From assembly GCF_027925305.1 (NCBI RefSeq), contig NZ_BSDR01000001.1, forward strand, positions 2,011,001 to 2,075,000: a stretch of DNA of 64,000 nucleotides, written 5' to 3'. This document shows positions 61,521 to 64,000 of this stretch, in pieces. The position numbers were made by a program, and so were the translations under genes. Each line of letters begins with the position of its first letter. Position 1 is the stretch's first letter. Under the pieces are notes generated by a model, which ran no database searches, was not told the origin of the DNA, and saw only the letters and a program-made list of their open reading frames with translations. The stretch is from Desulforhabdus amnigena. GTDB taxonomy: Bacteria; Desulfobacterota; Syntrophobacteria; Syntrophobacterales; Syntrophobacteraceae.

Positions 61521-63335
61521 ATGACAGAATCCATACATTCATTTCACATCCCTGTCATGGGAACGGCATTCACCATAGAATCACCGGCAAAAGTAGCCAG
61601 GTACGGGATTTCATCCGTCATTTCGTGTGTTGACGATACGCTGATTGAAAGAATGCGCAAGTTTTATTGCAAAGTGATGGGCGAAGAATGCGTACCTATA
61701 AAGAAGAGCGACGAGGATGCGCGGGCACATCGCATTACGGAATACCTCAACCTGCTCGATCGAATCGTCAAAGAACAGTTTGAAAAACTGAAGGAATCCG
61801 CCTTCGAGATCGGCACAGAGATCACCAAGTATTTCGATCTTCTGGCCGATTCCTCTCCTCTCAGGCAGGCCTACGAGCACATGCTCGCCATGAAGAATTC
61901 CACAGAGAGGCAAAAGGCCCAGGATCAATTGAGAAAGAAGATCAAGCCGGGGTCCATCGACGTCAACATCATGACCAAGCTGGATCGCACGAATTACGAT
62001 AAAAACGGGGAACCTCTTCCCAGCGAATTCACGGATGCGCTGGCCGCTTTGCGGGGCTATGCCAACAGCACGCTCCATTCTTCCATTGTCTTTTCAGCGG
62101 GCTTCAATGGTCGCCTTTATGGATATGCAGAACATTTTGAAGATTTTCACGCAGACGACAATGGGTGTATCAAAAAGAAAATCGTCGTCAAGGTAAACGA
62201 TTACCGTTCCGCTTTGACCCAGGGGAAGTTTTTTGCCAAGAAGGGACTGTGGGTGTCCGAATACCGTCTCGAGTCCGGCCTCAACTGTGGGGGACACGCT
62301 TTCGGCCATGGAGGAAATCTGATGGGACCCAGCCTGGAGGAATTCAAACAGAGAAAGCAGGAACTGATTGACACTCTGTTTGAAATCTATAACAAAGCGC
62401 GGGCTCAAAAAGGGAAAAAGACCTTCAGCTCGCCTCACCCCGTGCGCTTTACGGCTCAGGGCGGCATCGGAACAGCAAAGGAGAACGACTTCCTTCTGAA
62501 GTACTACGAACTTGACGGGACAGGGTGGGGAACCCCTTTCCTGCTGGTTCCCGAAGCAACGACAACGGATCAGAAGACTCTTGAAAAACTTTGCAAAGCC
62601 ACTGAAGAAGATCTTTTCCTGAGCGACGTTTCCCCTCTGGGGGTTCCCTTCAACAACTTGAGAACTTCCGCAAGCGAGGAAGCAAAGCTTGCCAGGATCA
62701 ACGCAGGCAAACCCGGAAGCCCCTGCAGCAAGGGGCATCTGGTCTCGAATACGGAATTTTCCCAAAAACCCATTTGCCTCGCATCGCGCCTTTACCAAAA
62801 GGAGAAGCTGAAGCAGATCACCAGCGAAAATCTGGATCCCGAAACGCAAAAGACCGCGTGTGAGAGCGTTATGGCAAAAGCCTGCCTCTGCAATGACCTC
62901 GGGGGTGCCGCCATTTTGGCCCACGGGCTTGCGGAACCGCACGATCTGCCCTGCCCTCCCGCCGTTTGCCCGGGTCCCAACCTGGCTTATTTTTCAAGAG
63001 CCTTCACCCTGAAGGAGATGGTAGATCATATTTATGGGCGTATAAACATCCTAGCAGGGAAAAGACGCCCCAATATGTTCATAGCCGAATTGAATATGTA
63101 TATTGATTACCTGGAACGAGAAATCAAGGAGTCCCTGCCTTCCGCCAACGACCAGAAAATAAAGTACTTCGGGGAATTCAGGGAGAACCTCGTGCGGGGG
63201 ATCGCCTATTATGAGGAGCTGATCCCAAAGATGACGCATGAGTCGAAGGAATACCGCGACAGGATGTTTCAAGACCTTGGCAACAGCAGGAAAAAGCTGG
63301 AAGCCTTGACGGAACGTTACAAAACGATATTTTGA
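61521..63335 (+). CDS. Conserved-looking protein of unknown function, FMN TIM-barrel-like with Cys-rich C-terminus
   Basis: 604 aa, soluble. Several stretches look like a flavin-binding TIM barrel of the nitronate monooxygenase/PfaD kind: HIPVMGTAFTIESPAKVARYG near 9-29, VVKVNDYRSALTQGKFFAKKG near 222-242, LNCGGHAFGHGGNLMGP near 254-270, and FTAQGGIGTAKENDFLLKYY leading into DGTGWGTPFLLVPEA near 310-346. Residues about 400-490 contain seven Cys (402, 419, 447, 455, 457, 478, 483; e.g. KACLCNDLGG, LPCPPAVCPGP), which may bind a metal or iron-sulfur cluster. The tail is helical. ATG 61521 follows GAGAAGGA. No characterised protein comes to mind; the barrel call is inference. Confidence 0.6.
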   Translation: MTESIHSFHIPVMGTAFTIESPAKVARYGISSVISCVDDTLIERMRKFYCKVMGEECVPIKKSDEDARAHRITEYLNLLDRIVKEQFEKLKESAFEIGTEITKYFDLLADSSPLRQAYEHMLAMKNSTERQKAQDQLRKKIKPGSIDVNIMTKLDRTNYDKNGEPLPSEFTDALAALRGYANSTLHSSIVFSAGFNGRLYGYAEHFEDFHADDNGCIKKKIVVKVNDYRSALTQGKFFAKKGLWVSEYRLESGLNCGGHAFGHGGNLMGPSLEEFKQRKQELIDTLFEIYNKARAQKGKKTFSSPHPVRFTAQGGIGTAKENDFLLKYYELDGTGWGTPFLLVPEATTTDQKTLEKLCKATEEDLFLSDVSPLGVPFNNLRTSASEEAKLARINAGKPGSPCSKGHLVSNTEFSQKPICLASRLYQKEKLKQITSENLDPETQKTACESVMAKACLCNDLGGAAILAHGLAEPHDLPCPPAVCPGPNLAYFSRAFTLKEMVDHIYGRINILAGKRRPNMFIAELNMYIDYLEREIKESLPSANDQKIKYFGEFRENLVRGIAYYEELIPKMTHESKEYRDRMFQDLGNSRKKLEALTERYKTIF

Positions 63336-63657: not shown

Positions 63658-64000
63658 GTGAATATTCTTTTGCAGAACCTACGTATCACCCTCCCCGTTT
63701 TTTTCCATGTCATTGCAATGGCTTTTTCTATCCTTATGCTCCCACGTCCGGGATATTCCATCAATATCGATGAAGCCATATCCCTCGCCGAAAGAAATCT
63801 ACCATCTTATAAAGCGGCGAAACTCGAGGTCCAGTCCACGGAGAACCTCTACAAGGCATCTCTTTCCCCCTATCTCCCGAGTCTGGATACATCCACATCT
63901 CAGGAATATCACGACACAACCCCCGAAGACTTTGATCTCAACACTTACGACGTCACCCTATCCTACCTGCTCTTCGACGGGGGCAGAAGAAAAGCCAACA
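63658..64000 (+). CDS. TolC-family outer-membrane protein (partial, C-terminus outside window)
   Basis: 114 residues before the window ends. GTG 63658 follows GGAGGT 9 bases upstream. Signal peptide (HVIAMAFSILMLPRPGYS), then the OEP start INIDEAISLAERNLPSYKAA and SPYLPSLDTSTSQEYHDTTP, and the typical TLSYLLFDGGRRKAN. TolC proteins are exit ducts for type I secretion or RND efflux. Unlike the NodT protein at 3418 it is not a lipoprotein in the part seen. Confidence 0.85.
   Translation, partial: MNILLQNLRITLPVFFHVIAMAFSILMLPRPGYSINIDEAISLAERNLPSYKAAKLEVQSTENLYKASLSPYLPSLDTSTSQEYHDTTPEDFDLNTYDVTLSYLLFDGGRRKAN

Follow-up and report, generated by a model that had tools for sequence, protein, structure and literature searches.

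What does the complete gene for a 604-amino-acid protein, found in the 64,000-nucleotide stretch of Desulforhabdus amnigena DNA that we analysed (the window), encode, given that none of the Pfam, NCBIfam and PADLOC models matches its product? The gene is present once in the 4.54-Mb genome. Its homologues are 53 to 77% identical and have frames without internal stops, so the open reading frame is a real gene and not a chance one. They occur in 18 of the 56 genomes of the class, in 16 of 395 sampled genomes of the phylum and, outside the phylum, in one Omnitrophota MAG; the plasmids, phages and viral contigs searched hold no relatives. The Pfam nitronate monooxygenase (NMO) model, PF03060, at its gathering cut-off matched neither the protein nor any of the 28 homologues tested, the FabK equivalog model TIGR03151 did not match the protein, and a single-sequence search of the PDB linked it to no related solved chain. 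We argue here that it is, with high probability, an oxidoreductase of the NMO/FabX superfamily with FMN and a [4Fe-4S] cluster as predicted cofactors. Its features are located in Table 1.

Table 1. Positions in the window of the gene, its main features and its upstream neighbour
Feature	Residues	Window positions	Strand	Basis
Upstream TPR-repeat protein, 423 aa		59823..61094	+	Neighbour on the same strand; conserved only within the window's own taxonomic family
Predicted FMN/[4Fe-4S] TIM-barrel oxidoreductase, divergent NMO/FabX superfamily member; complete gene	604 aa	61521..63335	+	Open reading frame, homologues, AlphaFold, Foldseek
Strands 1-2 and N-terminal FMN loop, IPVMGTAFTIESPAKVARYGISSVIS	8-35	61542..61625	+	Alignment, model
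Helical insertion between barrel strands 2 and 3	39-140	61635..61940	+	DSSP on models
Catalytic-His motif, E251-SGLNCGG-H259 A F	251-261	62271..62303	+	Alignment
FMN phosphate-type loops, GGIG and GWGTPFLL	314-317, 335-342	62460..62546	+	Conserved in homologues; aligned to GGI...QMGTRF of NMO/FabX
Predicted cluster ligand	C402	62724..62726	+	Aligned with FabX C300; 34/34 in joint alignment, 28/28 homologues
Predicted cluster ligand	C419	62775..62777	+	Aligned with FabX C308
CxC motif, C455-L-C457	455-457	62883..62891	+	C455 aligned with FabX C320
C483-P-G-P loop	from C483	62967..62978	+	Aligned with FabX F339-T340-G341, which touches FMN
C-terminal helices	519-599	63075..63317	+	Model; absent from FabX and aligned Cys-NMO

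For comparison, we took sequences of a subfamily annotated as nitronate monooxygenase with a cysteine-rich end (Cys-NMO); this subfamily is recognised by Pfam NMO. Further members, and a shorter subfamily, were taken from the scan of the phylum. In both the long and the short Cys-NMO subfamily four cysteines are invariant, the last two of them forming a CxC motif.

The predicted fold is that of a flavin enzyme. An AlphaFold model built from homologues only (pLDDT 85, pTM 0.87) has eight barrel strands, and a second model, with Cys-NMO and FabX-like rows added to the alignment, reached pLDDT 91.7 and pTM 0.91. In both, DSSP finds the barrel strands E8, E32, E146, E188, E220, E245, E309 and E333 in order, and the protein is laid out as an FMN-type TIM barrel, a cysteine-rich subdomain and a C-terminal helical bundle. 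The stretch 403-421, which lies in the cysteine segment and had low confidence, becomes ordered once the Cys-NMO and FabX-like rows are added; together with the rise in pLDDT from 85 to 92, this makes the joint alignment of the cysteines structurally consistent. In Foldseek searches of the PDB, both models had Helicobacter pylori FabX as their best match (E 3e-10 and 1.8e-10), followed by PfaD, the DfnA/MlnA enoyl reductases, FabK and NMO. Measured by TM-score, the similarity to FabX is moderate, at 0.66 when normalised to the length of the target and 0.42 to that of the query; the extra regions of the 604-aa protein account for part of this. The preliminary description, which proposed an FMN TIM barrel with motifs placed as in NMO and PfaD-type enzymes, was thus right about the fold. 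It also took the long insertion to be absent from related families, but the long Cys-NMO proteins have one at the same place after strand 2, with a different sequence. As for the C-terminal helices, they gave an apolipoprotein match (E 0.015) that we rejected as compositional, the helices being amphipathic. That weak match covers residues 548-601 (window positions 63162-63323), where contact with lipid or membrane is conceivable but unsupported.

The loops expected to hold FMN are recognisable, if altered. The N-terminal loop is the counterpart of QGGMGVGIS in NMO and FabX; M13 and G14 are invariant in all groups aligned, and the preceding GG is lost in the 604-aa family, so that the QGGM(G/A) motif of NMO reads PVMGT here. 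GGIG and GWGTPFLL lie 21 residues apart, close to the 20 or so first described, and the 28 homologues keep a GG-I/V loop and a GW-x-T/S-x-F loop with small variations. Among the FMN contacts of FabX, N99 is kept as N149, and Q240 is replaced by G335. H259, which aligns with FabX H182, is invariant in 28/28 homologues and in all 34 sequences of a joint alignment of four groups. Two cysteines add to this picture. C256 stands directly before GGH and is invariant in the 28 homologues, where relatives have Ala; C483 is invariant only in the 604-aa family and occupies the column of FabX F339, an FMN contact. Judging by this alignment, the C483-P-G-P loop may have a role near the flavin.

What might such an enzyme act on? 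Our computations establish the gene and its conservation, its fold, the homology to Cys-NMO/FabX, the invariant His and Cys residues and the near-exclusive distribution described below. The cofactors, the type of cluster, the substrate, the direction of the reaction and the partner in electron transfer we infer, largely by analogy with FabX. An acyl thioester (acyl-ACP or acyl-CoA), the most likely substrate, would enter beside FMN; H259 would move a proton, and FMN would take or give hydride or electrons. A [4Fe-4S] cluster, held by C402, C419, C455 and C457 in the C-terminal subdomain, would store single electrons or relay them between the enzyme and an external partner. The protein would probably fill, in its hosts, the role of the FabX-like enzyme found in related genomes. 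Taken by itself, a role like that of FabX, with acyl thioesters as substrates, is plausible yet unproven, and we place it slightly on the doubtful side. What we favour, with some confidence, is the combined reading that the protein belongs to the NMO/FabX superfamily as an FMN/[4Fe-4S] oxidoreductase and fills a FabX-like role with an acyl thioester as probable substrate.

The FabX-like role is suggested by a near-exclusive distribution. Within the class, the 604-aa protein and FabX/Cys-NMO-like proteins co-occur in 2 genomes against 8.5 expected (stratified exact p 3.7e-6, or 1.4e-4 under a strict definition of FabX, neither corrected for the tree). In family f1, FabX/Cys-NMO-like proteins are found in 0/8 genomes with the 604-aa protein and in 15/18 without it (p 1e-4), and in family f5 in 2/10 and 3/3, respectively (p 0.035). 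The phylum sample gives 0/16 with and 144/379 without (p 6e-4). Within one genus of another family, one genome (G142) has the 604-aa protein and another (G170) a FabX-like protein. Both genomes with co-occurrence (G004 and G013) are fragmented, and the contigs that carry the 604-aa gene are 3.7 and 7.2 kb long, so contamination is possible in these genomes. A DnaK tree offers at most four usable independent pairs, too few for a kinship-corrected test of exclusion. In families f2 and f3 most genomes have neither enzyme, so neither is essential in the class.

We also considered that the protein replaces a missing enoyl reductase, and rejected this. Class genomes with the 604-aa protein have no FabI match at E ≤ 1e-25 and no FabK or FabA over the cut-off, which speaks for the favoured reading. 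Across the class, however, FabA and FabK exceed their cut-offs in no genome, and FabI is present in few. Because FabI and FabK are missing from most of the class, including genomes without the 604-aa protein, their absence is not diagnostic, nor is that of FabA, which is class-wide.

The strongest alternative keeps the fold and both cofactors but gives the enzyme an unrelated substrate, be it a nitronate, a quinone, or one of the aromatic or sulfur compounds handled by anaerobes, with the exclusion reflecting lineage or habitat rather than a common function. Substrates in the NMO superfamily are varied, the active-site loops are much altered (W336, C256, C483, G335), and the independent pairs on the tree are too few to establish exclusion. 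The neighbourhood is also compatible with this alternative: in the loci compared, no fatty-acid genes adjoin, nothing is common to loci outside the window's own family, and the neighbours there (ZnuABC, TrpAB, ThiC) give no functional hint. Still, the exclusion recurs separately in f1 and f5 and again between G142 and G170 within one genus, and several of the nearest structural relatives (FabX, PfaD, DfnA, FabK) work on acyl thioesters. We regard an unrelated substrate as somewhat unlikely. Closer to home, the TPR-repeat protein lies directly upstream in 7/7 own-family loci and was seen at none outside the family; a functional tie to the 604-aa enzyme is unproven. Downstream, several own-family genomes carry genes whose sequences resemble those of an ABC exporter and of an outer-membrane protein of the TolC type (window positions 63658-64000; L102, L104, L105).

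Returning to the favoured FMN/[4Fe-4S] enzyme, the case for the cluster lies in the cysteines. As first described, the 604-aa protein has exactly seven between 402 and 483 (402, 419, 447, 455, 457, 478 and 483). Their conservation, left to be checked, proved partial: the 28 homologues keep the Gly-rich loop and five cysteines (C402, C419, C455, C457 and C483), whereas C447 and C478 vary. In the joint alignment of 34 sequences, C402, C419 and C455 are invariant across the four groups, and C457 is common to Cys-NMO but is Ala in FabX-like proteins. FabX binds its cluster through C300, C304, C308 and C320 and uses H182 in catalysis; among the four ligands, C304 matters least and is partly dispensable (PMC8626469). 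Three of these ligand columns are matched by C402, C419 and C455; C304 has no equivalent, and C457 is present instead. Because the fourth ligand differs, we do not file the 604-aa protein as FabX, though it may work like FabX.

Two ideas of the preliminary description did not hold. It supposed that related families lack the cysteines, but the aligned four-cysteine set is invariant in two large subfamilies labelled or recognised as nitronate monooxygenase, and FabX has its cluster-binding subdomain at the same place. It also supposed that a flavin combined with a metal cluster would be new, yet this combination is already known from H. pylori FabX, shown in 2021 to hold FMN and [4Fe-4S] (PMC8626469). 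The cluster of FabX stands where FabK has its NAD(P)H-binding part (PMC8626469).

Could the four cysteines of an FMN barrel bind something other than a redox [4Fe-4S] cluster, either a structural zinc ion or [2Fe-2S]? Their spacing, C-x16-C-x35-C-x-C, differs from the C-x3-C-x3-C-x11-C of FabX; no structure has been solved for the Cys-NMO relatives themselves, and the FabX paper reported no other characterised family member with a cluster (PMC8626469). However, the subdomain is otherwise homologous to that of FabX, three of the four positions fall on its [4Fe-4S] ligands, and the unmatched C304 is the dispensable one (PMC8626469), which makes zinc or [2Fe-2S] very unlikely.

All of this depends on true homology, for which profile comparison provides the evidence. 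Aligned by hhalign with the short Cys-NMO subfamily, the 604-aa family matched over residues 142-508 (E 4.3e-11, probability 97%, score 88.9) with all four cysteines aligned; scores were at most 23.4 for 20 column-shuffled targets and 16.5 for a reversed target. GGH, SPxGxPF and C...C...CxC are colinear between the two. Significance was reached only with the short subfamily and a mixed alignment: matches were weak to three actinobacterial/Deinococcus Cys-NMO proteins alone (E 0.015), to long Cys-NMO alone (E 0.008) and to FabX-like proteins alone (E 9e-4). The short subfamily in turn finds FabX in a PDB profile search at E 8e-81, and one FabX-like protein from the phylum can be aligned to FabX at its cysteines. 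A tree made by a quick method sets the 604-aa family and Cys-NMO apart from FabX-like and other NMO proteins (SH-aLRT 100), with the 604-aa family on a very long branch. It is extremely unlikely, and was already disfavoured, that the protein lies outside the NMO superfamily with convergent motifs and fold and unrelated cysteines: sequence searches found no match to Pfam NMO or a related PDB chain, and motif spacing differs in places, with one extra residue before GGH, but the profile-profile match (E 4e-11), the colinear His and Cys, the clean controls and the first rank of FabX in two structure searches all argue against convergence.

The relatives themselves are common. Cys-NMO proteins (L070-L077, L080, L081, L087, L089, L092; L037:1870-3276; L038:1819-3270) are widespread, annotated or recognised as nitronate monooxygenase, and carry their four invariant cysteines as C..G-Y-L/V, C-x-A and C-I/L-C-N. 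By their sequences, these "nitronate monooxygenases" are probably iron-sulfur flavoproteins. FabX-like proteins with a FabX-type cysteine pattern, KCPYHC..C..YCIA, are found at L041 and L043-L047, and FabX-like and related Cys-NMO proteins together occur in 144 of 395 genomes of the phylum at E ≤ 1e-60. The FabX of H. pylori needs oxygen, whereas some of the FabX-like/Cys-NMO hosts in the phylum may be anaerobic.

A conserved protein of about 600 residues that curated libraries do not recognise thus gains a testable identity. Our results also suggest that the flavin and iron-sulfur design of FabX, called unique in its family at publication, occurs widely, in three sequence forms or more. Should the exclusion reflect function, it would be a clue to how some anaerobes without detected FabA, FabK or FabI make fatty acids. 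A bolder extension, which we consider quite unlikely to hold as a whole, is that this unmodelled family repeatedly replaced FabX-like enzymes in anaerobes; it would carry out O2-free synthesis of unsaturated acyl-ACP or enoyl-ACP reduction, with electrons passing between the cluster and ferredoxin or another soluble carrier, and with a chemistry unseen in FabX that the invariant C256 and C483, placed beside the flavin, would provide.

How, then, does the 604-aa protein compare with known systems? With the FabK enoyl-ACP reductase (TIGR03151) it has the FMN TIM barrel in common, without matching the model. PfaD and the trans-acting enoyl reductases (4z9r, 6lkc, 4cw5) are FMN barrels with helical additions; the structure comparison matches them at E 1e-7 to 1e-9, and for both models most of them rank behind FabX. 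FabX of H. pylori (PDB 7e1q, 9lt5; PMC8626469), an FMN/[4Fe-4S] acyl-ACP dehydrogenase/isomerase, shares the TIM barrel, the His in a GGH motif, the C-terminal cysteine subdomain and three of the four ligand columns. Identity to it over the structural alignment is only 14-15%, the predicted fourth ligand is the second Cys of the CxC motif, and Gly replaces an FMN-contacting Gln. The Cys-NMO proteins (for example WP_239048221.1, WP_263217088.1; loci L070-L077) share all four predicted ligand cysteines, including CxC, as well as GGH and SPxGxPF, and their long form also has the insertion after strand 2. Unlike the 604-aa protein, the long members tested match Pfam NMO, and both forms keep QGGMG and QxGTxF and have no equivalents of C256, C483 or the C-terminal bundle. 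What is distinctive of the 604-aa family is its barrel-loop insertion, its C-terminal bundle, the invariant C256 and C483, all of them additions relative to FabX, and its strong sequence divergence.
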